DNA of 64,000 nt, taken from the NCBI RefSeq assembly GCF_900105735.1, contig NZ_LT629793.1, positions 1,054,001 through 1,118,000 of the forward strand, given 5' to 3'. Made by a program: the position numbers and the translations under genes. Each line of letters opens with the position of its first letter. Positions within the stretch are counted from its first letter, which is position 1. This stretch comes from Pseudomonas yamanorum. Its GTDB lineage: Bacteria > Pseudomonadota > Gammaproteobacteria > Pseudomonadales > Pseudomonadaceae. Under the pieces are notes generated by a model. That model saw only the letters and a list, made by a program, of their open reading frames with translations, was not told the DNA's origin and searched no databases. Below, in pieces: positions 5,924-62,335 of the stretch.

Positions 5924-5940
5924 GCCTGTTGTGATGCAAA

Positions 5941-5970
5941 AAAAGGGGAAGCCGGTGGCTTCCCCTTTTT
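5941..5970 (+). terminator. Rho-independent terminator of the aminotransferase gene
   Basis: A perfect stem GGGGAAGCC / GGCTTCCCC with a GGT loop is followed directly by five T residues, 17 bases after the stop codon. The A run on the 5' side would make it work in both directions. Confidence 0.92.
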
Positions 5971-5994
5971 CATTCTGCGAACGCGCCCAACGTG

Positions 5995-6116
5995 GCGAGG
6001 GAGCTTGCTCCCGCTGGGCTGCGCAGCGGCCCTGAAACCTGCCACCGTGAACTTTCTGAATGAATGCGCTGCCTGAATGGGGGCCGCTTCGCGCCCCAGC
6101 GGGAGCAAGCTCCCTC
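5995..6116. repeat. REPIN-like inverted repeat (GAGGGAGCTTGCTCCC type)
   Basis: The left arm GCGAGGGAGCTTGCTCCCGC and the right arm GCGGGAGCAAGCTCCCTC, each with its own small palindrome, are separated by about 85 bases with further imperfect pairing (GCAGCGGCC with GGCCGC). It belongs to a different REP subfamily from the elements at 2263, 25095 and 28128. Confidence 0.8.
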
Positions 6117-6231
6117 ACCACAGGGTGAGCAGATTGCTTCAATAGATGAGTGCATCCCCCCTAAAAATTCGCTGCTTTCAGTCCGCTACCCCTAGACTGA
6201 CAGCAAGACAGTCCCTTCCCTTGAGTAGCCT

Positions 6232-20979: not shown

Positions 20980-21432
20980 ATGGAATTACGAATTAACCAG
21001 CAGACCCACCAAGTCGATGCAGAACCCGACACGCCTCTGCTTTGGGTCATCCGCGACAACCTGGGCATGACCGGCACCAAATATGGCTGCGGTCTGGCGC
21101 AGTGTGGTGCGTGCTCTGTGCTTGTGGACGGCAATGTGGTCCGTTCCTGCGTCACGCCGGTCTCCGGTGTGGTCGGTCGGGAGATCACGACCATTGAGGC
21201 GATCGAGTCCGATGATGTCGGCAAGCGGGTGGTCGCGACCTGGGTCGAGTATCAGGTCGCTCAGTGCGGTTACTGCCAGTCCGGCCAGGTGATGGCGGCG
21301 ACGGCGCTGCTCAAGCAAACGCCCAAGCCGACCGATGCGCAGATCGACGCGGCGATGGTCAATCTCTGCCGCTGTGGCACCTATAACGCGATTCATGCGG
21401 CGGTGCATGACCTTGCGAAGGGAGAGGCCTGA
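20980..21432 (+). CDS. [2Fe-2S] subunit of molybdenum aldehyde/isoquinoline-type dehydrogenase
   Basis: A 150-residue electron-transfer subunit of the xanthine oxidase family. The plant-type cluster cysteines are C37, C42, C45 and C57 (CGLAQCGAC...C); the second cluster uses C96, C99, C130 and C132 (CGYC...CRC). It passes electrons from the molybdopterin subunit towards the cytochrome encoded downstream. It overlaps the next gene by one base (TGATG), so translation is coupled. It is called IorA-like in many genomes, but the true substrate is unknown. Confidence 0.94.
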   Translation: MELRINQQTHQVDAEPDTPLLWVIRDNLGMTGTKYGCGLAQCGACSVLVDGNVVRSCVTPVSGVVGREITTIEAIESDDVGKRVVATWVEYQVAQCGYCQSGQVMAATALLKQTPKPTDAQIDAAMVNLCRCGTYNAIHAAVHDLAKGEA

Positions 21433-23684
21433 TGAACGTTCGCATTGATCCCGCTGCCCTGCCTTTGGTCGCGGCGTTGAATGACCCGGTGAACCTGTCT
21501 CGCCGTCGTTTCCTGGCCAGTACGGCCGTGGGTGCGTTGGTGATTGGCTTTGGTCTGCCGTTGGGTTCTGGCCGGGTGCAGGCGGCCACTGCGGCGGCGG
21601 CTGGTGAGCGCGGTACGCAGGTGCCGGCGTTCCTGGAGATTCGTCCTGATAACACGATTCGTTTGCTCAGCCCCTTTATTGAAGGCGGCCAGGGTACGTT
21701 CACGGCGATGGCGCAGATTGTCGGCGAGGAGTTGGACGCCGACCCGGCCACGTTCCTGGTGGAGTGCGCCCCGCCCGGCGAAGCCTTTGTGGTGATGGAA
21801 AATGGCATGCGGATCACCGGCGGCAGTATGTCGGTGCGCATGAGTTACCCGACGATGCGCCGGCTGGGCGCGCTGGCCCGGGCGATGTTGTTGGAGGCCG
21901 GGGCACAGGCGTTGAAGGTGCCGGTGGATGAGTTGTCGACCGAGCCGGGCAAAGTGGTACACGCGGCGTCCGGGCGTTCCCTTACCTATGGCGAGTTGGC
22001 CGGGCGGGCGATGGACCTGCCGGTGCCGGACGTGGCCAGCGTGAAGCTGCGGGATCCGAGCCAGTTCCGTTGGATCGGCAAGCCGGTGAAGCGTCTGGAT
22101 GCGTATGACAAGTCCACCGGCAAGGCGCTGTACAGCATTGATATGAAGGTCGACGGCATGCTCCACGCGGCGGTGCAGCATGCGCCCCGGTTGGGCATGA
22201 TGGTGGGTAGCCTGCGCAATGAGGACCAGGTCAAGGCCATGCCGGGGGTCCATTCGGTGCATCGCCTGCCGGGTGCGGTGGCGGTGGTGGCTGAGCGTTG
22301 GTGGCATGCCAAGCGCGCGGTGGAGTCGATTCAGGTGGACTGGCTGGAGCCGACGGCGGATTCGAAAGTGCGCGGGATGCCGAAGGACTTTTCCAGCGAC
22401 GAGCATTTCAAGCGCCTGGCCGCTGAAACCGGCCCGGCCCGGGATGATGAGAACGAGGGTGATGTGGCCGGTACGCTGGCCAATGCCAAGACCAAGATCG
22501 AGGCCACTTACCACAACCAGTATCTGCACCATGCGCAGCTGGAGCCGCCTTCGGCGCTGGCGCGTTTCAATCCTGATGGTTCGCTGGAGATCTGGTTGCC
22601 GAATCAGGCGCAGGACATGTTCCTGGCCGATATCGCCAAGCGCACCGGTCTCGACCCGTCGCGGATTACCCTGCATTCGCCGCTCTTGGGCGGGTTTTTC
22701 GGCCGGCATTTTCTGTATGACTCCGCCAGCCCTTACCCGCAGGCCATTGAGTTGGCCAAGGCGGTCGGACGCCCGGTGAAGTTGATCTGGAGCCGTGAAG
22801 AAGAGTTTCTGCGGGATGTGCTGCGTCCCGTGGCGGCGGTGAATTTCCGTGGGGCGCTGGACAGTGACGGCTGGCCGGTAGCGATTGAAGCGGTGAGTGC
22901 CACAGAGGGGCCGACCGAGGCTCTGGCCGGTAAACAGGGCGAGAAGCTCGACCCGACGGCGCTGGAGGGGTTGTCCGGTAAGTCGTATGCGATTCCCAAC
23001 AAGCGCATCGCGCAGATTTATGTGAAGGGCCCGGTGATGCTGGGTTACTGGCGGTCGGTGGGTAACTCGCTGAATGACTTTTTCTATGAAGCCTTTCTGG
23101 ATGAGTTGGCTGACAAGGGCGGCAAAGACCCGTTCGAGTTGCGCCTGCATCTGTTGCGGGATAACCCGCGGCTGACCACGCTGCTGAAGGCGGTGGGCGA
23201 GTTGTCGGGAGGCTGGAAACGTGGCCCGTTTGTCGCCGAAGACGGCAGCAAGCGCGCCCGTGGGGTGGCGATGGCGTCGCCGTTCGGCACGCAGACGGCG
23301 GTGATTGCCGAGGTGTCGATCGAGAACGGGCAGGTCAAGGTGCATGACATCTGGCAGGCAATCGACCCGGGCAGCATCGTCAACCCGGCGATTGTCGAGG
23401 CGCAGGTGAATGGGGCGGTGTCCTTGGGCTTGTCCCAGGTGCTGTTGGAAGAGGCGGTGTATGTGGACGGCTTGCCTCGGGCGCGTAACTACGATTTGTA
23501 TCCAGTGCTGCCGCCTTCGCGGATGGCGCGGGTGCATGTGCGCGTGATCGAGAGCGGGGAAAAAATGGGTGGCATTGGCGAACCGCCGCTGCCAGCCGTG
23601 GCACCCGCCGTGGCCAACGCCGTGGCGACCTTGACGGGGCAGCGCATTCGCAGCATGCCGTTAAGCCGCTACTCCTTCACCTGA
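21432..23684 (+). CDS. Molybdopterin-binding subunit (IorB-like), Tat-exported
   Basis: A 750-residue catalytic subunit. The N-terminus has a twin-arginine signal preceded by a long n-region (NLSRRRFLASTAVGALVIGF, about residues 23-42), so the folded complex is exported to the periplasm and carries the 2Fe-2S subunit with it. Inside are the two xanthine-oxidase-type halves with GGFFGRHFLYD (substrate/Mo site) and EKMGGIGEPPLPAVAPAVAN near the C-terminus, which holds the conserved active-site glutamate. Its neighbours give it a 2Fe-2S partner and a cytochrome acceptor, as in periplasmic aldehyde oxidoreductases. Confidence 0.93.
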   Translation: MNVRIDPAALPLVAALNDPVNLSRRRFLASTAVGALVIGFGLPLGSGRVQAATAAAAGERGTQVPAFLEIRPDNTIRLLSPFIEGGQGTFTAMAQIVGEELDADPATFLVECAPPGEAFVVMENGMRITGGSMSVRMSYPTMRRLGALARAMLLEAGAQALKVPVDELSTEPGKVVHAASGRSLTYGELAGRAMDLPVPDVASVKLRDPSQFRWIGKPVKRLDAYDKSTGKALYSIDMKVDGMLHAAVQHAPRLGMMVGSLRNEDQVKAMPGVHSVHRLPGAVAVVAERWWHAKRAVESIQVDWLEPTADSKVRGMPKDFSSDEHFKRLAAETGPARDDENEGDVAGTLANAKTKIEATYHNQYLHHAQLEPPSALARFNPDGSLEIWLPNQAQDMFLADIAKRTGLDPSRITLHSPLLGGFFGRHFLYDSASPYPQAIELAKAVGRPVKLIWSREEEFLRDVLRPVAAVNFRGALDSDGWPVAIEAVSATEGPTEALAGKQGEKLDPTALEGLSGKSYAIPNKRIAQIYVKGPVMLGYWRSVGNSLNDFFYEAFLDELADKGGKDPFELRLHLLRDNPRLTTLLKAVGELSGGWKRGPFVAEDGSKRARGVAMASPFGTQTAVIAEVSIENGQVKVHDIWQAIDPGSIVNPAIVEAQVNGAVSLGLSQVLLEEAVYVDGLPRARNYDLYPVLPPSRMARVHVRVIESGEKMGGIGEPPLPAVAPAVANAVATLTGQRIRSMPLSRYSFT

Positions 23685-23701
23685 CCGGGGCCTTAGCACT
23701 T

Positions 23702-25045
23702 ATGAACAACCGTCGATTCGCAAGAACCGTTGGCTGGCTGGCGCTGCCGTGCCTGGTCGCGGCAGGCCTGCTGGCCTGGTATGTCACCCGTGAGCCGGTT
23801 TCGCCGCTGGGCGCCGAGCCTGTCGCCGCAGACCCGGCGCTGATCGCCCGAGGCGAGTATGTCGCCCGGCTCAGCGACTGTGTGGCGTGCCACAGCGTGC
23901 CCAACGGCGCGCCTTTTGCCGGTGGGCTGGAAATGGCCACGCCGCTGGGGGCGATCCATGCCACTAACGTCACGCCGGACCCGGAAACGGGTATCGGCCA
24001 CTACAGCCTCGCCGACTTCGACCGCGCGGTGCGCCAGGGTGTCGCGCCGGGTGGGCGGCGGCTGTATCCGGCGATGCCGTATCCGTCCTACGCCAAGCTC
24101 AGTGACGATGATGTGCGTGCCTTGTATGCGTTCTTCATGAAGGGCGTGGCGCCGGTGCGGCAGGCGAATATCGAGAGTTCGATCCCTTGGCCATTGAATA
24201 TGCGTTGGCCCATCGCGCTGTGGAATGGCGTGTTTACCGACAGCAAGCCGTACGTAGCGAAGGCCGGGAAGGATGAACTGTGGAACCGCGGCGCCTACAT
24301 CGTGCAGGGGCCGGGGCATTGCGGCAGTTGCCACACGCCACGGGGCCTGGCCTTTAACGAGAAGGCGCTGGATGAAAGCGGCAAGCCGTACCTGGCCGGT
24401 GGTTTGCTGGATGGCTGGTACGCACCGAGCCTGCGGGACGATCACAACACGGGCCTGGGGCACTGGAGCGAGCCGGAGGTGGTGCAGTTCCTGAAGACCG
24501 GTCGCAATAAGCATGCGGTGGTTTATGGGTCGATGACCGAGGCGTTCAACAACTCCACTCAGTTCATGACCGACGATGACCTGGCGGCGATTGCGCGCTA
24601 TCTCAGGTCGTTGCCGGGTGACGAGCAGCGTGATGGTAAGGCCTGGCAGTATCAGGCAGTGTCGGCTGCGGAACGCCTGGATGCGCCGGGCGCCCATACC
24701 TATGTGACCCGTTGTGCTTCGTGCCATGGGTTGGAAGGCAAAGGGCAGCCGGACTGGATGCCGCCGCTGGCGGGTGCGACTTCGGCGTTGGCCAAGGAGA
24801 ATGCCTCGGCGATCAACATCACCCTGAATGGCTCACAGCGGGTGGTAGCGGCGAATGTGGCGGATGCTTATCGCATGCCGGCGTTCAGGGAGCAGTTGTC
24901 GGATCAGGAGATTGCTGAAGTGCTGACGTTTGTGCGCGGTACTTGGGGCAATCAGGGCGGTGCGGTGGATGCGAAGGCGGTGGGCAAGTTGCGTGAGCAC
25001 ACGGGCCCGGCGAGCAGTAGCCCGATCATTCTGCAGATGCGCTGA
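23702..25045 (+). CDS. Triheme c-type cytochrome subunit
   Basis: A 447-residue membrane-anchored cytochrome with an N-terminal helix (TVGWLALPCLVAAGLLAWYV) and three CXXCH sites: CVACH (60-64), CGSCH near 202 and CASCH near 339. It resembles the cytochrome subunit of alcohol/aldehyde dehydrogenases, feeding electrons to the quinone pool or an oxidase. It starts 17 bases after the molybdopterin subunit and completes the three-gene operon. Confidence 0.94.
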   Translation: MNNRRFARTVGWLALPCLVAAGLLAWYVTREPVSPLGAEPVAADPALIARGEYVARLSDCVACHSVPNGAPFAGGLEMATPLGAIHATNVTPDPETGIGHYSLADFDRAVRQGVAPGGRRLYPAMPYPSYAKLSDDDVRALYAFFMKGVAPVRQANIESSIPWPLNMRWPIALWNGVFTDSKPYVAKAGKDELWNRGAYIVQGPGHCGSCHTPRGLAFNEKALDESGKPYLAGGLLDGWYAPSLRDDHNTGLGHWSEPEVVQFLKTGRNKHAVVYGSMTEAFNNSTQFMTDDDLAAIARYLRSLPGDEQRDGKAWQYQAVSAAERLDAPGAHTYVTRCASCHGLEGKGQPDWMPPLAGATSALAKENASAINITLNGSQRVVAANVADAYRMPAFREQLSDQEIAEVLTFVRGTWGNQGGAVDAKAVGKLREHTGPASSSPIILQMR

Positions 25046-33522: not shown

Positions 33523-35022
33523 TTATTTAGCCGCTTCCCCAATCGCCCGCGCCGCCTGAGCCAAGCGCTGCGTGGCGGCGCGGATTTCCTCCGGGTTGAG
33601 CGAGGCGAAGCCCAGGCGCAAGGCATTCTCGGGATGATCAAAGGGTGAAAACAGGCGACCGCTGCGCACCACCAGGTCCAGCTCCAGGGCTTTTTCAGCC
33701 AGTTGATTGACGTCGATTGAGTCGCAGAACCTGACCCACAACGCCAGCCCGCCTTCCGGCTCCTGCACGGCTATCTGCTCGCCAAACGCCTCCAGCAAAC
33801 AACTCAGCAGTGTCTCCCGCCGCCGACGGTATTCCTTGGATACCCGACGCAGATGCTTCTTCAACTCGCCATCGTTGATCAGGTCCGCGAGCATCCGCTG
33901 CATGACGGCATCGCCCTGGCCCAGGCTCACCGCCGCCGTGCGCTCGAGCACTTCGATGAGGTTCGACGGGGCAACGATATAGCTGCAACGGAACGTGCTG
34001 CCCAGGGACTTGGACAGTGAGCCGATGTAGATCACATGACGCTGCGCGCTGTCGCTGGCCAGGGGCAAATAGGGCCGCCCGGCAAAGTGGTACTCGTGGT
34101 CGTAATCTTCCTCGATGATGCAGAAATCATGCAGTCGGGCCAATTCCAGGAGTTGCTGGCGACGCCCGGCACGCAGGCTGACGGTGGTAGGAAACTGGTG
34201 ATGGGGGGTGACATACATCATCCGCACGTTGTGCCGGCGGCATAGTTCGTCGAGCTGGTCGACCCGGCAACCTTCGTCGTCCAGGTCCACGGTCACCAGT
34301 TGCGCGCCCAACTGGCGGAAAATCTCCCAGGCCGGTGGGTAACTCAGGCGTTCGACCACCACCACATCACCGGGTTTGAGCAGCGCGCTGGCGGTCAGGT
34401 ACAGCGACATCTGCACGCCTTGGGTCAGGCAGATCTGCTGCGCATCGACATTCAGGCCGCGATTGTGGCGCAACATTTCGGCCAGGGCGTTGCGCAGGTA
34501 CTGGCCGCTGCCTTCGGTGCCATGGCGCACGGTGTTGGTGGTAAAGCTGTTGCGCAAGGCGTTGCGGTAATAGCGATGCAGGACGGCTTGGGGCAGCAGA
34601 CGATGGTCACAGGCGCCATTATCGAAAAACAGCGCGCCCGGCCGGTGTTGCAGTTTTGTCACCTGCTCGCCCGGGGTGAAATAGGCAGCCGCAGGCACGC
34701 CCCGCAACGCCGGGGCAAACGACTTCGGCGCGCCGGCGACAGTCACCGCGCCTGTCGCCAGTTGCGTACTGACGAAAGTGCCGCGACGTTGAATGCTGAC
34801 CAGCCAGCCTTTGGTCACCGCTTCTTCGTAGGCAAGGATTACCGTCTTGCGGTTGACGTCCAGCAGTTGCGCCATTTCCCGCGTGCCGGGCAACAGCGTT
34901 CCGGGGCGCAGGCGGCCCTCGGCAATCGCGCTTACCAATCCTTCGATGATCTTTCTGTACGACGCCTGCGGCTGCGCGCCATCGAGCTTGAGCAGCGGGC
35001 GCCATTTGCGGAGCTGGACCAT
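33523..35022 (-). CDS. MocR-type regulator (GntR helix-turn-helix plus aminotransferase-like domain)
   Basis: A 499-residue protein. The N-terminal GntR winged helix (residues about 20-90) contains LLPGTREMAQLLDVNRKTVI. The class-I aminotransferase-like domain includes YVTPHHQFPTTVSL, EEDYDHEYHF and the PLP lysine in YIGSLSKSLGSTF. Such regulators sense PLP together with an amine or amino acid. It lies between the YdeE-like exporter (same strand, 77 bases on) and the divergent fusion gene, with three CTGG direct repeats in the divergent region. Confidence 0.93.
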   Translation of the reverse strand: MVQLRKWRPLLKLDGAQPQASYRKIIEGLVSAIAEGRLRPGTLLPGTREMAQLLDVNRKTVILAYEEAVTKGWLVSIQRRGTFVSTQLATGAVTVAGAPKSFAPALRGVPAAAYFTPGEQVTKLQHRPGALFFDNGACDHRLLPQAVLHRYYRNALRNSFTTNTVRHGTEGSGQYLRNALAEMLRHNRGLNVDAQQICLTQGVQMSLYLTASALLKPGDVVVVERLSYPPAWEIFRQLGAQLVTVDLDDEGCRVDQLDELCRRHNVRMMYVTPHHQFPTTVSLRAGRRQQLLELARLHDFCIIEEDYDHEYHFAGRPYLPLASDSAQRHVIYIGSLSKSLGSTFRCSYIVAPSNLIEVLERTAAVSLGQGDAVMQRMLADLINDGELKKHLRRVSKEYRRRRETLLSCLLEAFGEQIAVQEPEGGLALWVRFCDSIDVNQLAEKALELDLVVRSGRLFSPFDHPENALRLGFASLNPEEIRAATQRLAQAARAIGEAAK

Positions 35023-35053
35023 GTGAATTATCCAAAACTGGAGGTTCTTCTGG
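35014..35053. promoter_or_regulatory. CTGG direct repeats, candidate MocR operator
   Basis: CTGGACCATG (35014), CTGGAGGTTC (35038) and CTGGTCCTAG (35050) lie in the same orientation, 24 and 12 bases apart, that is on nearly the same DNA face. TauR-type MocR proteins are known to bind direct repeats beginning CTGGAC, so these are plausible contacts. The first overlaps the start of the MocR coding region. Confidence 0.45.
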
Positions 35054-35099
35054 TCCTAGTCTAACGCAACAATCGAACCTCAATTGCCCCGAGGTGTTT

Positions 35100-36773
35100 A
35101 TGCACAACCGCCATGTCGTTGAATTATTGCCCTCGGGCAAATCCTTCGAAGCCGCCGACCAATTGCTGCTCGACGCCATGCTGGCCAGCGGTCTTGCCGT
35201 CCCCTTCTCCTGCCGGCGCGGCGCCTGCGGGTCGTGCAAGGTCAAGGTGGTGTCGGGCGAGTTCCGCGAAAAGGTGCTCACACCCGACACCCCGGCGCCC
35301 TCCTACCCACTCGCGGCTGACGAGATGTTGCTGTGTCAGAGCCATGCCTGCAGCGATATGCGCCTGGAAATTCCCGGCTGGTCACTGGACACGCCAACGT
35401 TGGAAGTCAGCGCACAGGTGATCAGCAAGCACGCATTGAGCGCCGACATCGTCGAGCTGGTGTTGCTGACCGCCCAGCCACTCGACGTGCGAGCCGGCCA
35501 ATACCTCAGGTTTCGCCTCGACGATGGCGACAGCCGCTGTTTCTCCGTGGCCAATCTGCCCGCGCAGGACCAAGGCCGGTTGGTGTTTCATATTCGCCAG
35601 GTCCCCGGCGGGCTATTTTCCGAACGCATCCTGCCGACCCTGCAAGTGGGCGATGCGGTGAAACTCGAAGGCCCCGTAGGCGCCTGCACCTGGCAACACG
35701 ACGATGAGCGCCCTGTTGTGCTGTTCGCCACCGGGACCGGTTATGCCGGCATCAAGCCCTTGTTGCTGACGGCCCTGGCCCGCCAGGCCGAAGTCACCCT
35801 GTATTGGGGGAACTCGTCGCCGGCGGACTTCTACGACGCTGAGTTTCTCGAGCGCGTCAGCCAGGCACATCCACGCTTTCACTGGCATCGAGTGCAGTCG
35901 GTAGACGCCCGCGTGCAACAGGTCGCGCTGACACAGCCCCACCACTGGGCGGAGAGCCAGATCTATGCCTGCGGCAACAGCAAGATGATCAGCCAAGTCC
36001 GCGAAACCTGTCTGGCAACGGGCGCCCAGGCTCATCGTTTTGTTGCCGAAGCCTTCGTCCCCAGCGGCGCATTGACCCAGGCGGAGTCGCTCAACACGCG
36101 CCACCCGGTGCTGGAAAAAGTCGGCCCGCGCTACTCGCTGGACGGCATGCTTGCTGCCCGCGAGCAGACGGTAAGAGCCCTGGCCGCCATCGCCGACCAA
36201 TTGAAAGTCGGCATGACCACCGCGCAAGCCCTCGACATGGCCAGTCAAACCTTGCAGGCCATGGGCGCGTCCCACACCTGGCACCCCACCTATATCCGCT
36301 TTGGCGACGACACCATCCGCACACCGCGCCAAGGCATCGACCCGCAACGCAAGCTGCGCGCCACCGACATCGCCGTGGTCGACCTTGGCCCGGTTTGGGA
36401 TGGCTATGAAGGCGATTATGGCGACACCTTCGTCTTCGGCGAGCACCGGTTGCACGACGCCTGCGTGAAGGCACTGCATGAAGTGTTCGACGAAACCCGC
36501 GACGCCTGGCACCACGGGCTGACCGGACGCGAGCTGTATGACTTCGCTGAGGGTAGCGCCCTCTCCAAGGGCTGGCGCCTTGAGCGCAACCTGGCAGGAC
36601 ACCGCATCGCCGACTTCCCGCATGCCCTGTTCGGGCAGGACAAGCTGGCTGAGGTCGAGATCGTACCGAGCGAGATGGTCTGGGTTTTGGAGATTCAGCT
36701 GTGCCATCCCACACAACCGATCGGGGCGTTCTTCGAGGATATTTTGATTGGCGAGGCCAGCGGAGGCGTGTAG
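35100..36773 (+). CDS. Fusion of [2Fe-2S]/FAD/NAD(P) reductase with M24 peptidase-like domain
   Basis: 557 residues from ATG 35100 (GAGG six bases upstream). Residues 1-85 are a plant-type ferredoxin with C38, C43, C46 and C79 (CRRGACGSC...C). About 95-325 are an oxygenase-type reductase: RCFSVANLP for FAD, FATGTGYAGIKPLL for NAD(P), YACGNSKMISQV. From about 335 an M24 'pita-bread' domain follows with all five metal ligands: D428 (VVDLGP), D439 (EGDYGDTF), H501 (AGHRIADFPH), E531 (VLEIQL) and E546 (FFEDIL); the 11-residue D-D spacing equals that of methionine aminopeptidase. There is no frame break. The reaction is unknown, and I know of no described enzyme with this layout. Confidence 0.9.
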   Translation: MHNRHVVELLPSGKSFEAADQLLLDAMLASGLAVPFSCRRGACGSCKVKVVSGEFREKVLTPDTPAPSYPLAADEMLLCQSHACSDMRLEIPGWSLDTPTLEVSAQVISKHALSADIVELVLLTAQPLDVRAGQYLRFRLDDGDSRCFSVANLPAQDQGRLVFHIRQVPGGLFSERILPTLQVGDAVKLEGPVGACTWQHDDERPVVLFATGTGYAGIKPLLLTALARQAEVTLYWGNSSPADFYDAEFLERVSQAHPRFHWHRVQSVDARVQQVALTQPHHWAESQIYACGNSKMISQVRETCLATGAQAHRFVAEAFVPSGALTQAESLNTRHPVLEKVGPRYSLDGMLAAREQTVRALAAIADQLKVGMTTAQALDMASQTLQAMGASHTWHPTYIRFGDDTIRTPRQGIDPQRKLRATDIAVVDLGPVWDGYEGDYGDTFVFGEHRLHDACVKALHEVFDETRDAWHHGLTGRELYDFAEGSALSKGWRLERNLAGHRIADFPHALFGQDKLAEVEIVPSEMVWVLEIQLCHPTQPIGAFFEDILIGEASGGV

Positions 36774-36858: not shown

Positions 36859-37077
36859 ATGACCGACGATACAAAAACAAAAGGGCCAGCGTCGTACTTC
36901 CCCTCCATCGAAAAAAACTATGGGCAGCCCATTAGCCACTGGCTGGATCTGCTCAAGGCCGCCAGTTCCAGGAAGCATATGGAGCTTGTGGCCTTGCTCA
37001 AGACTGAACACGGCATGGGCCATGGTCACGCCAATGCGTTGGTTGCGTACTTTTTGGCGGCTGAAAAAGGCAATTGA
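36859..37077 (+). CDS. DUF4287-like small protein
   Basis: 72 residues from ATG 36859, which is preceded by AAAGGGAG. The sequence FPSIEKNYGQPISHWLDLLK followed by HMELVALLKTEHGMGHGHAN and ALVAYFLA is the DUF4287 pattern (YPxIEKxxGxPxxxWxxll, then LK.xHg.GHg.AnaLV). Function unknown. It stands alone, 85 bases after the fusion gene. Confidence 0.85.
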   Translation: MTDDTKTKGPASYFPSIEKNYGQPISHWLDLLKAASSRKHMELVALLKTEHGMGHGHANALVAYFLAAEKGN

Positions 37078-53531: not shown

Positions 53532-53598
53532 GAGAAACCCTCCTCGCCTGCCCCTTAACATGCGCCCCGAAGTCACTCCCGGGACGCAGCACACCCAC

Positions 53599-54333
53599 AT
53601 GTCATCGCTCAATCATTCGTCCACTTTTCGGGCCTGCCGGGCCCTGCTGTTCGCCGCTGCGCTGATCGCCTCACTGCTGGCCGTGGCGCCCTGCGCGCAG
53701 TCGGCGGTGAAGATTGAAGGCACGCGCCTGATCTACTTTGGCCAGGATAAAGAAGCCAGCCTCAACGTGGTCAATCAGCAGCCGCGCCAGGTGGTGGTGC
53801 AAAGCTGGATCACCCGCGAAGACGAAGATGCAACCCGGGCGGTACCCTTCGCCGTGGTGCAGCCGCTGGTGCAACTGGATGCCGGGCAACATCACGTGCT
53901 GCGGGTCCTGTATGCCGGTGAAGGGTTGCCCGGTGATAGGGAGTCGCTGTTCTGGCTCAACGTCATGGAAATCCCGCTGAAGCCGGAAAGCCCCAACAGC
54001 GTGCAGTTTGCGGTGCGCCAGCGCCTCAAGCTGTTCTATCGCCCGCCCGGGCTCGCGGGCGGCTCGGCACAAGCCGTGCGGCAACTGGCGTGGAGCAGCT
54101 CTGACGGGCACTCCATTGCCGTGACCAACCAGAGTGCCTTTCACCTGTCCCTGGTGAATCTCCAGACCGATACCGCCGGCAAGACTCACGCGCTGGACGA
54201 CTACCTGCTGCTCAAGCCCGGGGAGCGCAAGGTCCTCGACACCCAAGCGCCTATCAATGCCGGGACCCAAATCCACTTTACCGAAATCACCGATATCGGC
54301 TTGCAGGCGCGCCATAGCGCAGCCCTCAAGTGA
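53599..54333 (+). CDS. PapD-like periplasmic fimbrial chaperone
   Basis: 244 residues from ATG 53599, with a signal peptide (ALLFAAALIASLLAVAPCAQ, cleaved near QSA). The two immunoglobulin-like domains show VKIEGTRLIYFGQDKEASLN, the subunit-binding strand VLRVLYAGEGLPGDRESLFW with LNVMEIPLKP, and RQRLKLFYRPPGL. Conserved arginine and lysine equivalents of PapD R8/K112 are in TRLIYFG and LKLFYRP. It would hold fimbrial subunits in the periplasm. The adhesin-like gene follows after 23 bases, but no usher gene is present in the window. Confidence 0.9.
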   Translation: MSSLNHSSTFRACRALLFAAALIASLLAVAPCAQSAVKIEGTRLIYFGQDKEASLNVVNQQPRQVVVQSWITREDEDATRAVPFAVVQPLVQLDAGQHHVLRVLYAGEGLPGDRESLFWLNVMEIPLKPESPNSVQFAVRQRLKLFYRPPGLAGGSAQAVRQLAWSSSDGHSIAVTNQSAFHLSLVNLQTDTAGKTHALDDYLLLKPGERKVLDTQAPINAGTQIHFTEITDIGLQARHSAALK

Positions 54334-54356
54334 TAGATCGCGGGGAACACCGACCC

Positions 54357-55340
54357 ATGCCACACGTTAAACACCTGCTACTGGCCGCCCTGTGCACTTG
54401 CGCCGCCCTCCCCGCCACCAGTTATGCGCTGGCCTGCCGGGAAGACGGCAGCGGATCGACCGTCGACATCGCGCCCCTCGGCACGGCATTGGCGGTGAGC
54501 GCCGATGCGCCGGACGGCACAATTATCTGGGAGTCGGGCCCACGCTCCACCAACGTGATCTGCAAGGACGACTTTAACCACGGGCGCGAGGAAGTTTACT
54601 TCTACCTGAACCCGGCGAACGTCAGCATCGGCCAGGGCATACGCGCCGGGATTCGCTACAAATCGGTGCCCATCACCCAAAGCACCGGCAAGTACGGCAC
54701 CGGTTTCTTCTCCGATCGGGGCTGCACCTGGGCCAATTGCACAGGCTGGGACCAAGCTCGGTTCACCCTCAACTTCAGCGTGTTTATCGAAAAGTTTGGC
54801 ACCACCCCACAAAACGGCCAGGCCAGTAACCTCACTCAATATCGAGTGTTTCAACTCGACGGTATCCAGGGCCTCAACAACAAACCCAACAGCAACCTCA
54901 ACTACATCGTCACCGGGGTCAACGACATCCGCTTCGTGCCCTGCGCGCCCGAACTGACCATCACCCCCAGCGTGGTCAACTTCCCCACACCGTCGCGCAA
55001 GGCACAGATCGGCGAAGTGGCCAGTACCGCCACGTTCAACTTGAGCCTGCGCAAAGCCTGCGACACTCCGTACACGGTGGACGCACGGTTCGCCACCACA
55101 CCGGGAGGCGGCAGCTTGATCAATGGTTTGCTGGTGCCGGACAACAACAGCTCCGTGGGCATCTCACTGTCCCGCGAAGACACCAGCCAAACCCTGGCCT
55201 TCAATCAGTGGTTCGCCCTGGCCAAATTGAATGCTTCCGGCCAGACCCGGCATGACTTCAGGGCCGACTTGAAGTGGCGTACGTTACCGATCCCTGGAGC
55301 CTTCGACGCAGCGGTGATTGTCGACATGTTTTACAAGTAA
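54357..55340 (+). CDS. Fimbrial tip adhesin-like protein
   Basis: 327 residues. The signal peptide is HLLLAALCTCAALPATSYAL. Cysteines are in YALACRE, NVICKDD, RGCTWANCTG, FVPCAPE and RKACDTP, suggesting disulfides in both halves. The C-terminal half looks like a pilin domain (ELTITPSVVNFPTPSRKAQI and, at the end, DAAVIVDMFYK), while the N-terminal half may bind a receptor. This two-domain layout and position fit a CU-pathway tip adhesin. It follows the chaperone gene in one operon. Confidence 0.8.
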   Translation: MPHVKHLLLAALCTCAALPATSYALACREDGSGSTVDIAPLGTALAVSADAPDGTIIWESGPRSTNVICKDDFNHGREEVYFYLNPANVSIGQGIRAGIRYKSVPITQSTGKYGTGFFSDRGCTWANCTGWDQARFTLNFSVFIEKFGTTPQNGQASNLTQYRVFQLDGIQGLNNKPNSNLNYIVTGVNDIRFVPCAPELTITPSVVNFPTPSRKAQIGEVASTATFNLSLRKACDTPYTVDARFATTPGGGSLINGLLVPDNNSSVGISLSREDTSQTLAFNQWFALAKLNASGQTRHDFRADLKWRTLPIPGAFDAAVIVDMFYK

Positions 55341-55355
55341 CCGCGCGGCAGCTTT

Positions 55356-55369
55356 TAAGGATCGTCTTA
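55356..55369. promoter_or_regulatory. RcsB-box-like site 3 (before the hybrid kinase gene)
   Basis: TAAGGATCGTCTTA shows the same pattern as the two sites upstream of the fimbrial genes and is 36 bases before the kinase ATG. It matches the RcsB box consensus at most positions. Confidence 0.45.
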
Positions 55370-55404
55370 TGCCCACGCCGTAGGCGGACCTTTAAAATCC
55401 GCCG

Positions 55405-58215
55405 ATGCGATTTAAAAGTTACCTGCTCCAACTCAATCCCGTCCTCTCCCGACCCGAAGCAGCCAGAAGGCTGCTTCGTACGTTTGCGACCGTGCTATTG
55501 GTGGGGATCCTGAGCGGTGTCTACACGTTCCTGCTGTCCACCTTCAACAATGACATCTCCCAGCGACGCGGCTACATGAGCAGCGCGATTGCCGAAGCCC
55601 ATACGTTTTTCACCAACCGTGAAGCGCTGCTGGAGAGCTTGAGCCTGTCGGCGGTACGCAAATCCAGGCAGGCCAAGTCGCAGATTTACCCGGCCTCCAG
55701 CGAAGAACAGCGCCTGCTGCTGGGGGACACGCCGGGCAATCAATGGAGCATCTGGCTGACCTCACGCATGCGTGATTACCTGCAGGCCAAGCAGGTCAAC
55801 CTGCTCTACGTGAACGCCGGCCCAAACCCACAAGTGACGCGCCTCTACAATTCCACGACGCAGGTGTTGCCGTTTTCCATGTGCATGCTCGACCGGCTCA
55901 AAGCGCTGCGGGTCAGCGACCTGTCGGACGTTGGCGAACTGTGGCTGAGCGACCAGACCGAAGAGCACGCGCACCTGTACCTGTTCATTCGCCTGGATGA
56001 ACGCGACCCCGAGTCCGGCTGGCTGGGCCTGGAAATGGAAAGCCGGGAAGTCTCCAGCACCCTGAATGACCAGAGTGCGGGCGAGTTCATGATGCTCAAC
56101 TCCCAGGGCATGCTGGTGTTTACCAACAGCCACGACGCCAGGCTGAGCGAGATACTGCTCAAGCCCAAGGGCGATAATTTTTTCGGCTTTGTGGGCAGCG
56201 GCCTGGTGCCTGATCACCTGGTGATTCGCAAACACCTGAAGTCGTCGGACTGGCAGTTGGTGTACTCGATCAACCTGCGGGACGTAGTGCGCGGGCTGTG
56301 GCGGGAACTGCTGGGGTCGTTGGTATTTTGCCTGTTCAGTGTGACCCTGATCTGGCTGGTGATGCGCCGGGTTGATCAGCGTTTCATCATCCCCTCGATC
56401 AATCGCATCCAGGCGCTGATTGAAAGCGAGGCATTCGGCCGTGACGTGATCCAGACCGCGCCGGTCGCGCTGTGTGTGCTGCGCCGCACCGATGGCCAGG
56501 TGGTGCTGGAAAACACCCTGGCCCAGCAGTGGCTGGGGGACGGCCCGGAGCGCGAGGCGTTGTGCGCCGGCTGGATTCGCCAGGCGTTCCACAGCATTGC
56601 GTCCGAGCACAGCGATTATTTCGAAACCATCGACGGCCGCCACCTTTACCTCAGCAGCGCGCCCACCCGTTACCGGGGTGAGGACGTGCTGTTTTGTGCG
56701 TTCAGCGACATCAGCGCACGCAAACAAGTGGAGGCCGCACTGGAAGAAGCCCGGCAATCGGCGGACGCGGCGAATGCTGCAAAAACCTTGTTCCTGGCAA
56801 CCATGAGCCACGAAATTCGCACGCCGCTGTATGGCGTGCTGGGCACCCTGGAACTACTGGCCCGTACCCGACTCGACGCCCAGCAGAAAGACTATCTGCA
56901 TGCCATCGAAGGCTCATCGGCAACCCTGCTGCAATTGATCTGCGACGTGCTGGATGTATCGAAGATCGAGGCCGGGCAACTGGCCCTGGAACTGAGCGAG
57001 TTCTCGCCGCTGGAGCTGGTCAATGAAATCATCCAGGGCTATGCCGCTGCCGCGCTCGGCAAGGGTTTGCAGTTGTATGCCTGCTTCGACCCCAAGCTGC
57101 CTGAGCGGTTGATTGGCGATGTCACGCGCATCCGCCAGATCCTCAACAACCTGCTGAACAACGCGGTGAAATTCACCGATTACGGGCGTGTGGTGTTGCG
57201 GGTCAAATTGCTCGACCGCGATGACGAACGCTCCAGCGTGTTGTGGCAAGTCTCCGACACCGGCAAAGGTATCGCCCAGGAAGATCAGTCGATGATTTTC
57301 GAGCCTTTCTATCAAACCGAAGGCAACACCAATGTGGTGGCCGGTACCGGGCTTGGGTTACCGATCTGTCAGCGCCTGACGCAATTGATGAACGGGCATA
57401 TTCGCATGGTCAGCGAGCTGGGCCTGGGCAGCAGTTTCAGCCTGACGTTGCCCCTCGAAGAAGCGCCCAGCCCACCGATGAGCAGCTTGCTGGCAGAGAC
57501 CATTTACGTGGTCTCGCCGATTCCCGAACTCGCACAATCCATCAGCGGCTGGCTGCGGCGCTGGGGCGCCCGTGCACAGACCGGCCAACCCACCCAGCCG
57601 GACGGCCAACTGCTGCTGGAGCTGCATCCCGGCACCGTCGAACAACCGCTGGTGCCTGACTGGCCGGGCCCGGTAATCCTGGTGAGCAGCAGCAGTTGCA
57701 ACACCCAGCAGACCGAGGCCGGCGCGTGGCACGTCAACCTCAACCAATTGAGCGCGATTCACCAGGCGGTCAGCCAGGTACAAGGGTTGTGGGTCGCGCG
57801 GGTCGATGAGCAGTCAAAAAAGCGTGAACTGCAAAAGCTCAACCTGCACGTGCTGGTGGCCGAGGACAACGTCATCAATCAATTGATTTTGCGCGACCAA
57901 CTCGAAGAGCTCGGCTGCACCGTTGAGCTGGCCGGCGATGGTCATGAAGCGTTGCTGCTGTGCAAAGCCTCACGTTTCGACGTGGTGCTGACGGATGTGA
58001 ATATGCCCCGGGTCAACGGTTACGAGTTAGCCAGGGAACTGCGCCGTCAAGGCTGTTCGCTGCCCATCATCGGGGCCACCGCCAACGCCATGCGAGGCGA
58101 GGCCGACCTGTGCCTGGCCGCCGGGATGAACCATTGCCTGGTCAAACCCTTTGCGTTGCGGGCCCTCTTCAATTCCCTGGCGCCTTACGCACGGATCCCC
58201 CATGAAGCCTTATAG
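55405..58215 (+). CDS. Hybrid sensor histidine kinase (PvrS/RocS-like layout)
   Basis: 936 residues. TM1 is at about 27-47, a periplasmic sensing region of about 240 residues follows, and TM2 is near 293-315 (LLGSLVFCLFSVTLIWLVMR). A PAS-like region comes next, then the dimerisation domain with H469 in LATMSHEIRTPLYGVLG, the ATP-binding domain (ILNNLLNNAVKFT, DTGKGIAQ, GTGLGLPIC), and a receiver with phospho-acceptor D864 (VVLTDVNMPRVNG). No HPt domain. Its stop overlaps the EAL regulator gene by 14 bases, so they are co-translated. The same arrangement controls Cup fimbriae in P. aeruginosa (PvrS-PvrR, RocS1-RocR). Confidence 0.92.
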   Translation: MRFKSYLLQLNPVLSRPEAARRLLRTFATVLLVGILSGVYTFLLSTFNNDISQRRGYMSSAIAEAHTFFTNREALLESLSLSAVRKSRQAKSQIYPASSEEQRLLLGDTPGNQWSIWLTSRMRDYLQAKQVNLLYVNAGPNPQVTRLYNSTTQVLPFSMCMLDRLKALRVSDLSDVGELWLSDQTEEHAHLYLFIRLDERDPESGWLGLEMESREVSSTLNDQSAGEFMMLNSQGMLVFTNSHDARLSEILLKPKGDNFFGFVGSGLVPDHLVIRKHLKSSDWQLVYSINLRDVVRGLWRELLGSLVFCLFSVTLIWLVMRRVDQRFIIPSINRIQALIESEAFGRDVIQTAPVALCVLRRTDGQVVLENTLAQQWLGDGPEREALCAGWIRQAFHSIASEHSDYFETIDGRHLYLSSAPTRYRGEDVLFCAFSDISARKQVEAALEEARQSADAANAAKTLFLATMSHEIRTPLYGVLGTLELLARTRLDAQQKDYLHAIEGSSATLLQLICDVLDVSKIEAGQLALELSEFSPLELVNEIIQGYAAAALGKGLQLYACFDPKLPERLIGDVTRIRQILNNLLNNAVKFTDYGRVVLRVKLLDRDDERSSVLWQVSDTGKGIAQEDQSMIFEPFYQTEGNTNVVAGTGLGLPICQRLTQLMNGHIRMVSELGLGSSFSLTLPLEEAPSPPMSSLLAETIYVVSPIPELAQSISGWLRRWGARAQTGQPTQPDGQLLLELHPGTVEQPLVPDWPGPVILVSSSSCNTQQTEAGAWHVNLNQLSAIHQAVSQVQGLWVARVDEQSKKRELQKLNLHVLVAEDNVINQLILRDQLEELGCTVELAGDGHEALLLCKASRFDVVLTDVNMPRVNGYELARELRRQGCSLPIIGATANAMRGEADLCLAAGMNHCLVKPFALRALFNSLAPYARIPHEAL

Positions 58216-59398
58216 TATTTTGATCGTCGAGGACCATCCCCTGCAGCACATCTACCTGCAGAACCTGCTCAGTGAGCTGGGGGATTTCCTCCTTGAAGCG
58301 GCCCAAGATGGCAAGGAAGCGCTGGAGCGGTTGCGCCAGCGCGATTTCGACCTTGTGCTGACGGATCTGCTGATGCCGGGCATGGATGGCGTGCAGTTTA
58401 TCCAGAGCCTGGCGAGCCTGCGGTGCAAGCCCGCCCTGGCGATCATGAGTGCCGCGTCCCGGCGCATGTTGATGGCGGCCAGCCTGGTGGCGAAAAACCT
58501 CGACGTGGAAGTGATAGGGCTGATTTCAAAACCGGTGGCGGCCGAAGCCCTGCGCAACCTGGTGAATCAACTCAACGACAAGGACCGCAGCCCTTCGCCG
58601 CCGATGCTCCCCGCCCACCTGGAAATAGACCGGCAGACGATCATCCAGGCGATGGGCGACGGCCAATTCCAGGCCTGGTTCCAACCGAAAAAATCCTTGG
58701 CCAACGGCCGCATCGTCGCCGCCGAAGCGCTGGTGCGCTGGATGCATCCCGAGCAAGGCGTGATGCTGCCGGCCTCGTTTTTACCGGCCATCAAAGCTTT
58801 CGAGCTGGAAGAGCGCCTGCTGTGGATCGTGCTGAAACAGGCCATCCATGCCCAGGAACGCTGGCGCCAGCGCGGTTACGAGATTCCGGTGTCGATCAAC
58901 TTGCCGACCCATTTGCTCAACAGCCACGACCTGGCAGACCGCCTGCTGGAGTTTGTGCTGCACCACCAGGGCATCCCGGGGATGATTTGCTTTGAGCTGA
59001 TGGAGTGTTCGGTGCCCCAGGACATCAGCAACTTCTACGCTGGCGCATGCCGCTTGCGCATCAAGGGGTTCGGCCTGTCCCAGGACGATTTCGGCAAGGG
59101 CTACAGTTCTTACCTGAACCTGGTCTCGACCCCGTTTACCGAGCTCAAGATCGACCAGGCGCTGGTGCAGGGTTGCCACGACAACGAAGGCATGGCGTCG
59201 GCCCTGGCCAGCATCATCGCACTGGGCCGCAAGCTGGGACTGACGGTGGTTGCCGAAGGTGTCGAAACGCCCCAGCAACTGGCCCTTTTGCGCAAAATCG
59301 ACTGCACCCAGGTGCAGGGTTTCCTGATCTCCCACGCGGTCTCTTCAGACCAATTCCAGCAACTATTGAACAATGATGGCCCCGCGACATCTCACTAG
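58202..59398 (+). CDS. Response regulator with EAL c-di-GMP phosphodiesterase domain (PvrR/RocR-like)
   Basis: 398 residues from ATG 58202. The receiver has D55 in VLTDLLMPGMDG and lysine in LISKPVAAEAL. The EAL domain keeps its catalytic set: E175 in AAEALVRW, asparagine in SINLPTHLLNS, glutamate in CFELMECS, DDFGKGYSSY, the lysine in ELKIDQAL and glutamate in VVAEGVETPQQ. It should therefore hydrolyse c-di-GMP when phosphorylated, lowering fimbrial expression or adhesion as PvrR and RocR do. Translated with the upstream kinase. Confidence 0.93.
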   Translation: MKPYSILIVEDHPLQHIYLQNLLSELGDFLLEAAQDGKEALERLRQRDFDLVLTDLLMPGMDGVQFIQSLASLRCKPALAIMSAASRRMLMAASLVAKNLDVEVIGLISKPVAAEALRNLVNQLNDKDRSPSPPMLPAHLEIDRQTIIQAMGDGQFQAWFQPKKSLANGRIVAAEALVRWMHPEQGVMLPASFLPAIKAFELEERLLWIVLKQAIHAQERWRQRGYEIPVSINLPTHLLNSHDLADRLLEFVLHHQGIPGMICFELMECSVPQDISNFYAGACRLRIKGFGLSQDDFGKGYSSYLNLVSTPFTELKIDQALVQGCHDNEGMASALASIIALGRKLGLTVVAEGVETPQQLALLRKIDCTQVQGFLISHAVSSDQFQQLLNNDGPATSH

Positions 59399-59479
59399 TC
59401 CGCGGCCTGGCTTTGTTTAATCTATAAAGGAGTAAGCTCCATCCAGCGCCGATTTCTCATCCGTCTGCGGAAATCATCA

Positions 59480-62335
59480 ATGAAGCACAACAACGCGATC
59501 CTGGAAGCATTCACCCGCAGTTCGCTGCGCCTGAACAAAGGGCTGATGGTGGTGCTTGGACTCGCGTTGTTGCTGGCGGGCACCAGCTACTGGGCATTGC
59601 ATCGGGTGATCGACGAGCAGCACGCGGCCGTGCGTTTTCACTTCGCACGGCTGATGGAAAACATCCATGAACAGGAGGCCTTCCTGAGGATCCTGGCGCA
59701 GCCCGCTACCCAGCGCGAACTGATGAGTGACAAGAACGTCCAGTTCACCCTTGAAAACCAGCGCATCGACGCCCGCGGTACGCTGTATGAAGGCCGCGAG
59801 TTTGGCTTTTCGGTGCCGTTCAGCGCCCAGTTCGATGCACAACACGTCACGGCCAGCGAGCAGCAGAAGATCTTTGCCCTGGGGGCCCACCTGGCCAACT
59901 ACTACAGTGCGTTCTGGTCATCGTCGCCCTATCAGTCGCCACAGGCCTTTATCACCAACCGTCTCGTTCACTACCGCCTGGCGGTGCCGGCAATCGGGTT
60001 CCGGAGCTGGGACAAAATCGCCGCCGGTGCCCCGGCCGACGCAAACGTTGAAGCCGCGCTTGATCAGCTCAGCGAGCTCTCTCAACCCTTGGCCGAGGAT
60101 CAGTTGTACTGGGAAACCTACCGGCCAGCCGAGAGCGCCCTAGCGCCGCCCCGGCTGCTGGCGTACATCGGCATCCCGCTGACCCCGCAGGTGCTACGTG
60201 CAGGCGAAGGCAACCACCAGGTGGTGGTTGCCACCCTGCTGGACATGGCCCAAGTCAACGATATGGAACGCACCATGGAGTGGTCGACCTATGACCGTTT
60301 CACCTTGATCTCACCCGCCGGCCAGACCCTGACCGGGCCGCCGGCTGACCAAGCGTCACTGGGTGAGGGCCTCAACTTCCGCCCTGACGGCCTGGCGTTC
60401 AAGATCACCAGCAGCGCCGGGCCGCAGTGGACGGCGATCTACGGGATCAGTTTCAGGCATTTTTTCCGTTCTGCATTGTGGCCACTGAGCAGCCTGGCGC
60501 TGGTGCTGTGCAGTGTGCTCGCGATGGGCTGGGCCGGCAGCCGCTGGTACAGGAAGCAAGTGATTCGCCCGGCGCGCCAGGCCCATGAACGCATCGCCGA
60601 AGCCGTTGCATTCAGCCGGGTGATCATCGATACCGCCCCCACCGGGCTGTGTGTGGTGCGCCGTGAAGATAAACAGGTGTTGATCGAGAACCAGCGCGCC
60701 CAGCAATGGCCGGGCACCACCAAATTGGTGGCCTCGCTCAACCGTTATAACGACAGCGCCGACACCGGCGAGACCCATCTGGAAATCGACGGCCGCCACC
60801 TGCAAATCGGCTTCGTCTCGACCCGCTATCAGGGCCAGGATGTGCGGCTGTATGCGTTCAATGACGTCACCCGGCATATCGAGGACGCGCAGGCCCTGGA
60901 AGAGGCCAGGAGCGCCGCCGACGCGGCCAACGAGGCCAAGACATTGTTCCTGGCAACCATGAGCCATGAAATTCGCACGCCTTTGTACGGTGTGCTCGGC
61001 ACCCTTGAGTTGCTGGGCCTGACGCCGCTGGACCCGCGCCAGAAAACCTACCTGAACACCATCCAGCGTTCGTCTGCCACCTTGTTCCAGTTGATCAGCG
61101 ATGTGCTGGACGTGTCGAAAATCGAGTCCGGGCAGATGGCAATCGAAGCCGTCGAATTTTGCCCGCTGGACATGCTCGAAGACACCCTGCATACCTACGC
61201 CGCGTTCGCCCAGCGCAAGGGCCTGCAATTCTATGCCTGCATTGATGCGCAACTGCCGGACTGCGTACTGGGCGACCCGATGCGGATTCGCCAGATCCTG
61301 AACAACCTGGTGAGCAACGCCCTCAAGTTCACCGACATCGGCCGCGTGGTGATTCGTGCCAGGGCGACCCGGCGCGGTACGGACCAGGTCGACCTAGAGT
61401 GGCAAATCACCGACTCCGGCGTTGGGATCAGCGAAGCCCAGCAGATCAAGCTGTTCGACCTGTTTTACCAGGCCCCAGACACCGCAGGCCAAGGCGGCGC
61501 CGGGCTGGGCCTGCCGATTTGCCGTTGGCTGGCAGAGATGATGGACGGCGAGATCAAGGTGGTCAGTGAACCCGGCCTCGGCAGCAGTTTCACCCTGAAG
61601 ATGAGCTTGCTGGTGTGCGCCAGCGAGGTGCCGGGGCTGCCGCCGATTGAGCCAGGCGCAGCACCGGTGTATGTGCAGGCGCCGGTGCGTGAGTTGGCAG
61701 AGTCGATGTGCGACTGGCTCAACCGCCTGGGCATTCAAGCGGCACTGGCCGCGTTGCCCCTGGAACAACAATCGCCCCAGGCGGTGCTGGTGGATGTGCT
61801 ACCCACCGGCCCGCTGCAACCCTGGGCCGGCCAGCGCGTGCTGTGCGTGCCCGGGGCCCATAGCCCGCCGCTGTACACCGCACAGGGCTGGGAAGTGGAC
61901 ATGCACGATGTGCGCGCCGTTGCGGCCACCGTTTCATTGGCGCAACAAGGCAAGCACGAACCACCTCTGCAGCCCGAACAACAGAGCGCCGGGCCACTGG
62001 GGCTGCGCATATTGGTCGCCGAGGATAACCCGGTGAACCAGGCCATTATCCAGGAACAACTGGAAGCACTCGGCTGCACGGTGACCTTGGCATCCAATGG
62101 CGAGCAGGCGATGCACCTGTGGCAACCCAACGCCTTCGACCTGGTGTTGACGGACGTGAATATGCCGTTGATGAACGGCTACGACCTGGCGCGTACACTC
62201 AGGGAGCATGACCCTCAGTTGCCGATCATAGGGGTCACCGCGAACGCCATGCGCGAGGAAGGCATTCGTTGCCTGGCGGTAGGGATGAACGCCTGGCTCG
62301 TCAAGCCCTTGACGGTCATTTTCAAGATAAATTAA
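59480..62335 (+). CDS. Second hybrid sensor kinase, C-terminally cut short (RcsC-like position)
   Basis: 951 residues. TM1 is near 24-45 and TM2 near 335-355, with a 290-residue periplasmic sensor between. H496 is in LATMSHEIRTPLYGVLG; ATP-binding motifs are ILNNLVSNALKFT, DSGVGISE and GGAGLGLPIC. The receiver has D892 (LVLTDVNMPLMNG) and the lysine of WLVKP, but then reads LTVIFKIN and stops, where the sister kinase runs on for a further helix. The DNA becomes AT-rich exactly there. An HPt domain, found in RcsC/RocS1-type proteins, is absent. It closely resembles the first kinase and probably arose by duplication. Confidence 0.88.
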   Translation: MKHNNAILEAFTRSSLRLNKGLMVVLGLALLLAGTSYWALHRVIDEQHAAVRFHFARLMENIHEQEAFLRILAQPATQRELMSDKNVQFTLENQRIDARGTLYEGREFGFSVPFSAQFDAQHVTASEQQKIFALGAHLANYYSAFWSSSPYQSPQAFITNRLVHYRLAVPAIGFRSWDKIAAGAPADANVEAALDQLSELSQPLAEDQLYWETYRPAESALAPPRLLAYIGIPLTPQVLRAGEGNHQVVVATLLDMAQVNDMERTMEWSTYDRFTLISPAGQTLTGPPADQASLGEGLNFRPDGLAFKITSSAGPQWTAIYGISFRHFFRSALWPLSSLALVLCSVLAMGWAGSRWYRKQVIRPARQAHERIAEAVAFSRVIIDTAPTGLCVVRREDKQVLIENQRAQQWPGTTKLVASLNRYNDSADTGETHLEIDGRHLQIGFVSTRYQGQDVRLYAFNDVTRHIEDAQALEEARSAADAANEAKTLFLATMSHEIRTPLYGVLGTLELLGLTPLDPRQKTYLNTIQRSSATLFQLISDVLDVSKIESGQMAIEAVEFCPLDMLEDTLHTYAAFAQRKGLQFYACIDAQLPDCVLGDPMRIRQILNNLVSNALKFTDIGRVVIRARATRRGTDQVDLEWQITDSGVGISEAQQIKLFDLFYQAPDTAGQGGAGLGLPICRWLAEMMDGEIKVVSEPGLGSSFTLKMSLLVCASEVPGLPPIEPGAAPVYVQAPVRELAESMCDWLNRLGIQAALAALPLEQQSPQAVLVDVLPTGPLQPWAGQRVLCVPGAHSPPLYTAQGWEVDMHDVRAVAATVSLAQQGKHEPPLQPEQQSAGPLGLRILVAEDNPVNQAIIQEQLEALGCTVTLASNGEQAMHLWQPNAFDLVLTDVNMPLMNGYDLARTLREHDPQLPIIGVTANAMREEGIRCLAVGMNAWLVKPLTVIFKIN

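Follow-up and report, generated by a model that had tools for sequence, protein, structure and literature searches.

What does a protein do when a single gene joins a ferredoxin/flavin reductase to a domain of the M24 metallopeptidase superfamily? Such a gene lies in the 64,000-nucleotide stretch of Pseudomonas yamanorum DNA analysed here (the window). M24 enzymes are best known for hydrolysis, the lyase DddP being an exception. Our analysis points to a self-contained NAD(P)H-driven metalloenzyme with an electron-fed M24 site, which would most likely perform O2 chemistry on an amine-like molecule, and we put the probability of this reading at roughly 45%.

The fused gene occupies positions 35100–36773 of the forward strand. 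Translation gives a single stop-free frame of 557 residues in the order [2Fe-2S], FAD, NAD(P), linker and M24. An in-frame GTG is found 6 nt 5' of the ATG at 35100, but the ribosome-binding GAGG at 35091–35094 fits this ATG. Four Pfam domains are detected above their gathering scores, namely Fer2 (PF00111, residues 10–83, 7.2e-14), FAD_binding_6 (PF00970, residues 105–197, 1.2e-10), NAD_binding_1 (PF00175, residues 209–301, 3.4e-09) and Peptidase_M24 (residues 349–549, 1.9e-21). The original prediction, made from the letters of this DNA, of an unbroken frame through [2Fe-2S], FAD/NAD(P) and M24 domains is confirmed. On the forward strand, the plant-type [2Fe-2S] ferredoxin domain (residues 10–83) is encoded at 35127–35348, the FAD- and NAD(P)-binding reductase domains (residues 105–320) at 35412–36059, the linker (residues 321–338) at 36060–36113, and the M24 pita-bread domain (residues 339–557) at 36114–36770. 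The linker is variable and poorly modelled, with a mean identity of 0.43 across the 21 fused loci compared.

The cluster motif of the ferredoxin domain reads C38-x4-C43-x2-C46-x32-C79. The M24 domain contains five ligands, D428 (36381), D439 (36414), H501 (36600), E531 (36690) and E546 (36735), together with two conserved histidines, H395 (36282) and H508 (36621). All these cysteines, ligands and histidines are invariant in an alignment of 38 sequences, which consists of the window protein and 37 homologues picked from 120 listed ones, 70–95% identical; the five ligands had been named correctly from the start. The predicted structure of the full-length fusion is a poor model (pLDDT 64.8, falling below 50 across residues 317–346), so that domain docking, the metal and the electron path cannot be read from it.

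The reductase part has the make-up of Fer2-FAD-NAD oxygenase reductases, with the three domains and the four cluster cysteines. Its nearest NCBIfam models are BenC, an NAD(P)H-flavin reductase, AntC and MmoC, and all of them are far below cut-off; against the curated thresholds, the fusion scores 122.3 versus 430 for BenC, 114.4 versus 402 for AntC and 111.1 versus 500 for MmoC. The best solved relatives are mostly oxygenase reductases. BenC, AntC, MmoC and PDB 5ogx, the best NCBIfam and PDB matches, resemble the fusion in domain order and cluster motif. PDB 5ogx is labelled a cytochrome P450 reductase, and we take it to be GcoB. Reductases of the BenC, AntC and MmoC type serve separate oxygenase proteins and have no M24 domain, whereas the fusion carries one in the same protein.

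The other half belongs to the Peptidase M24 superfamily, as indicated by the Pfam match, the pita-bread fold and the ligands D, D, H, E and E. Methionine aminopeptidase, prolidase and Xaa-Pro aminopeptidase share this fold and ligand set, and the closest folds listed for the domain are all hydrolases. Identity to the 50 best M24 metallopeptidase structures is 14–23%, and the model of type I methionine aminopeptidase, TIGR00500, gives 28.4 bits versus a cut-off of 171.35. Unlike known M24 metallopeptidases, the domain is minimal and either shares its polypeptide with a reductase or is encoded alongside one. Self-sufficient P450s also have fused reductases and hold an electron chain and a terminal metal domain in one polypeptide; they end in a haem P450 domain, whereas the fusion ends in an M24 fold. 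Non-peptidase chemistry on the M24 fold is found in the DMSP lyase DddP, which has a modelled binuclear iron centre and an N-terminal domain ahead of the pita-bread domain, with no reductase mentioned in the available part of that source (PMC4108388). Each half comes from a known family; for the pairing itself, no description was found in an open-access library, which misses most subscription journals.

A first protein search returned 245 homologues of the fused protein. Among the 120 listed, identity ranges from 70 to 96% and 118 have all four Pfam domains, while P0012 (a partial record) and P0079 have three each. At 96% stands P0003, which is labelled P. yamanorum. Listed records that bear an organism are from Pseudomonas, save one from Pantoea, and the record names include ‘M24 family metallopeptidase’ and ‘CDP-4-dehydro-6-deoxyglucose reductase’. 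The original prediction had proposed a search for the fusion in related strains, and it was found there at full length, in 28 of 199 Pseudomonas genomes with the window's own counted. Twenty-six of these copies are uninterrupted, and the two others (G119 and G158) have one TGA in the matched stretch. No full fusion occurs in the 273 other Gammaproteobacteria genomes sampled (274 including the window's own). One genome (G095) carries, besides a full fusion, a partial second copy of the M24 part (G095:C19:25854-26336, residues 383–543, 88% identity).

Selection was compared over 21 fused loci, the window and 20 of the other 27, which give 210 pairs (estimable: 210 for M24, 204 for Fer2 and 187 for the linker). 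Median dN/dS is 0.111 for Fer2, 0.208 for FAD, 0.187 for NAD and 0.106 for M24, compared with 0.591 for the linker. Low values on both sides and a high value in the linker indicate that selection keeps both halves and leaves the linker loose; judged by these ratios, purifying selection on the M24 half is strong. A search with the M24 region gave 230 matches, and the 120 listed are the same fusion and a few shorter or domain-poor relatives, such as P0122–P0127 (332–551 residues), which may be fragments. Other fusion partners of M24 are absent among these 120.

Divergent from the fusion lies a gene for a MocR-type PLP-dependent regulator of 499 aa (33523–35022, reverse strand), with GntR and Aminotran_1_2 domains. 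A regulator of this type adjoins the fusion divergently in 21 of 21 loci, and at L202 and L203 the beginning of a comparable divergent gene is visible. By our own gene calling, every other gene family is present in at most five of the 21 fused loci; one found in five is LysE-like (C2, named by eye). The absence of an oxygenase partner, pointed out in the original prediction, is borne out in that gene calling finds only the MocR gene common to all 21 loci. The window regulator passes the cut-off of NCBIfam PdxR NF052282 (338.1 versus 320). PdxR regulators control genes of pyridoxal phosphate synthesis; at the 21 regulator loci, compared by gene families and not by the names pdxS and pdxT, only the fused gene is common to all.

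Between the two genes is a divergent promoter region of 77 bp (35023–35099), of which the block 35030–35073 is conserved in the 21 loci. GGACCA (35016–35021) and TGGTCC (35051–35056) form an inverted repeat, and we regard the repeat and the conserved block as a putative operator. From this recurrent arrangement, the MocR gene and the fusion are read as a two-gene module. Just downstream of the fusion is a small DUF4287 gene (36862–37077), whose cluster is absent from the families common to at least three of the 21 fused loci. The module has a parallel in ectoine degradation, where EutD/DoeA is an M24-like hydrolase; to our knowledge, that system has no reductase. It belongs to a large ectoine gene cluster, whereas the fusion loci share only MocR and the fusion. 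The available part of the EnuR source describes this MocR-type regulator as paired with the ectoine hydrolase EutD/DoeA, and as a case of MocR regulators that can sense amines via PLP (PMC5924519).

Elsewhere in the window, translations read by eye show the large subunit of a molybdopterin-type oxidoreductase and, after it, a gene for a c-type cytochrome (21432–25045). Positions 53560–62335 hold, again by eye, fimbrial chaperone-like and adhesin-like genes, then genes for two large hybrid sensor kinases that flank one for an EAL-type response regulator. The arrangement is presumably similar to the way in which signalling genes of Cup fimbriae are laid out in Pseudomonas.

The reductase and the M24 domain also exist as separate genes. 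Pseudomonas batumici (G079) carries the fusion plus a second MocR gene that is divergent from a reductase gene, and an M24 gene follows 32 bases behind this split reductase gene. With the G079 M24 protein as query and one genome per species, we obtained 69 loci. These, with L154 and L155 from a 300-genome scan, provide 14 genomes in which the M24 gene stands behind a gene for a [2Fe-2S] protein, including Beta- and Alphaproteobacteria. The hosts are Pseudomonas batumici, P. sp. JUb42, P. salomonii, four Chromobacterium, two Caballeronia, one Hydrogenophilales, one Rhodospirillales, a Xanthobacteraceae MAG and two further genomes. Among 398 genomes sampled from the phylum to which the window belongs, 11 had an M24 match and none a new split locus.

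In 13 of the 14 split genomes, the match covers most of the reductase, at only 27% identity in L087 and in two frames in L082; the locus L085 has only a 120-residue ferredoxin-type protein with the ferredoxin domain alone. The reductases of L078 and L087 were found by tblastn, and all 143 M24 rows (the M24 matches tabulated) were rechecked likewise. A candidate second fusion in L082 (Chromobacterium haemolyticum) was not counted, as its upstream reductase match spans two different frames. The domain order of the split reductases is FAD-NAD-Fer2 in all seven run against Pfam, the reverse of that in the fusion (the Fer2 of L079 scores 20.7 bits versus a cut-off of 21). Their cluster cysteines are spaced C-x5-C-x2-C in each of the 13 examined, whereas the spacing in the fusion is C-x4-C-x2-C.

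A related MocR gene is present in 12 of the 14 split genomes (in L081, L154 and L155 as partial sequence only). It lies divergently beside the reductase gene in 10, is separated from it by a permease gene in L085, and is convergent behind the M24 gene in L086; no MocR gene was seen at the split loci L079 and L087. The window MocR has 41% identity over 492 residues with the split-locus MocR, versus at most 32% at comparable length with its own-genome paralogues, one of which matches at 35% over 220 residues. On these identities, the regulators of fused and split loci are specifically related. Split loci L085 and L086 both have an amino-acid permease, with Pfam applied to L085 alone. A class-I glutamine amidotransferase, for which Pfam was applied to L086 alone, is seen in L077, L078 and L086. 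Neighbours that recur at fused or split loci are too few for naming a pathway. The original prediction would have been doubted if the two halves were always separate and unrelated in close homologues. The separate parts of the split clade are still neighbours, but standalone M24 genes without such a neighbour outnumber them.

In the M24 tree, the fused clade is separate (100/100), the split clade with L087 (99/97) is located beside the standalone forms from Burkholderiales, and those from Pseudomonas are placed elsewhere. A single origin of fused and split M24 domains is not rejected by the AU test (p 0.159), so the two forms are not surely independent and, as far as the tree goes, may have one origin. 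The reductase tree leaves the sisterhood of fused and split reductases unsettled because its references were chosen as relatives of one family. With either origin, a differently laid-out reductase has been kept or recruited.

Another kind of electron-transfer gene accompanies M24 at three Burkholderiales loci among the 69. At L110 (Pseudoduganella umbonata), a rubredoxin gene is directly behind the M24 gene (Pfam PF00301, 69 bits versus a cut-off of 23; NCBIfam NF045768, 69 bits, under the cut-off of 90). After it comes a short, truncated rubredoxin-reductase-like frame (5680–6170 for the two), which suggests decay of an older operon. At L094 and L106, the gene that follows M24 encodes a reductase carrying PF18113, the rubredoxin-binding domain (2.9e-18 and 1.6e-15, respectively). 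Of 30 loci examined in a family sample, two showed the rubredoxin link, and both come from genomes already among these three; the rubredoxin motif occurs twice in 1.77 Mb of sequence, once per copy of the same locus. Scans that found M24 in 13 of 300 and 2 of 74 genomes added no new rubredoxin-linked M24. Since three loci are few, we use these neighbourhoods as supporting evidence only. A DJ-1/AraC-type regulator is matched near 29 of the 30 Burkholderiales-side loci of the family sample, one of them at a mere 30% identity.

The sequences themselves show how the domains are arranged and conserved, how selection acts on them, that the regulator is paired with the fusion, and that M24 is repeatedly linked to electron-transfer genes. 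The conserved fusion, the split operons with a similar regulator and the three rubredoxin neighbourhoods together suggest that the M24 site is probably fed electrons. To this extent the original prediction of NAD(P)H-driven transfer to the M24 metal site gains support; for its proposed coupling to hydrolysis or a peptide substrate, nothing was found beyond the family name and the fold.

From these data we infer the passage of electrons to the M24 site, the iron, the role of O2 and the kind of substrate, and a possible mechanism is as follows. NAD(P)H would reduce FAD, and FAD would pass electrons singly to the [2Fe-2S] domain. Through the flexible linker, this domain could reach and dock onto the M24 domain, whose two-metal site, with DDHEE ligands and probably iron, it would reduce. 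Once reduced, the site would catalyse a reaction that needs electrons and most likely involves O2; its target would be a small amine or a molecule resembling an amino acid. The adjoining MocR would turn the gene on once an amine-bearing signal reacts with its PLP. We favour O2 chemistry on an amine-like molecule because of the oxygenase-type reductase and the MocR regulator. Iron is proposed on the grounds of the carboxylate-rich ligand set and of DddP, modelled with two irons in the part of the source available (PMC4108388). In a more specific form, the M24 fold would have turned into an O2-activating diiron oxygenase; in Pseudomonas its own NAD(P)H reductase would feed it in cis, and in other Proteobacteria [2Fe-2S] reductases, a ferredoxin or rubredoxin systems would do so in trans. 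We hold this tentative extension to be somewhat unlikely. We know of no described member of such a class, and the literature searches listed none.

The wider M24 subfamily bears on a different explanation, in which M24 is an ordinary Fe(II) hydrolase or lyase and the reductase merely keeps or restores ferrous iron as a built-in repair. The 143 M24 rows represent 118 distinct sequences, some loci being counted twice. No homologue of the split reductases, ferredoxin or rubredoxin reductase lies within 1.6 kb in 101 of them, which comprise 92 standalone and nine Pseudomonas standalone rows and keep the same metal site. Redox homologues within this distance are found, by construction of the classes, in 14 of 14 split and 6 of 6 rubredoxin rows; L087 was the sole redox match among 93 rows first classed as standalone; none of the nine Pseudomonas standalone rows has one; and 21 fused rows carry their own reductase. 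The five ligands are kept across the 143 rows, one of which stops before E546, and W394, R400, R502, D505 and W528 are conserved in all. Electrons are thus not obviously required by the whole subfamily, and the electron link marks certain clades.

Two standalone cases deserve mention. The window's own genome has a 220-aa M24 relative (C1:5273111-5273749, 38% identity) with no adjoining reductase homologue. In Pseudomonas gingeri, a gene downstream of the standalone M24 (L028, 8490–9137; L101, 5865–6512) is presumably a relative of HD-domain cyanamide hydratase.

The 101 rows fit a ferrous-repair role, as do the canonical ligands with two conserved histidines, the hydrolases among the listed closest folds, and DddP, an M24-fold enzyme with iron and lyase chemistry according to the available part of its source (PMC4108388). 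However, a one-to-one fusion kept in 28 genomes would be costly if repair were needed only occasionally. In addition, iron-tolerant M24 enzymes such as MetAP are not known to have a reductive repair device, and we consider this role unlikely.

On the other hand, the protein might be bifunctional and catabolic, its reductase serving a distant oxygenase or free flavin and its M24 domain hydrolysing a later intermediate of the same pathway. The reductase half does resemble reductases of separate oxygenases, and, as the wider neighbourhood of the fusion varies, the gene of a partner could lie elsewhere. Yet our gene calling finds no gene beyond MocR common to all 21 fused loci, and the split-locus M24 gene is directly behind the reductase or ferredoxin gene, a place often held by the gene of the electron acceptor. 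We rate a bifunctional protein as distinctly improbable. A join of two genes by sequencing error, which the original prediction had itself raised, or a recent functionless fusion, deserves practically no credence: some copies do have an in-frame TGA (2 of 28) and some shorter relatives lack domains, but the frame is stop-free and intact, the fusion is kept in many genomes from many sources (28 of 199 in Pseudomonas), and dN/dS is low in all four domains.

Our preferred reading remains an M24 site fed with electrons by its own reductase. If the site does receive electrons, a common metalloenzyme fold would have a wider repertoire, and the fusion would be a compact self-sufficient redox biocatalyst. 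It would also explain genes labelled ‘M24 family metallopeptidase’ or ‘CDP-4-dehydro-6-deoxyglucose reductase’ in many genomes. Because the two halves are fused, the question can be tested directly on a single purified protein.
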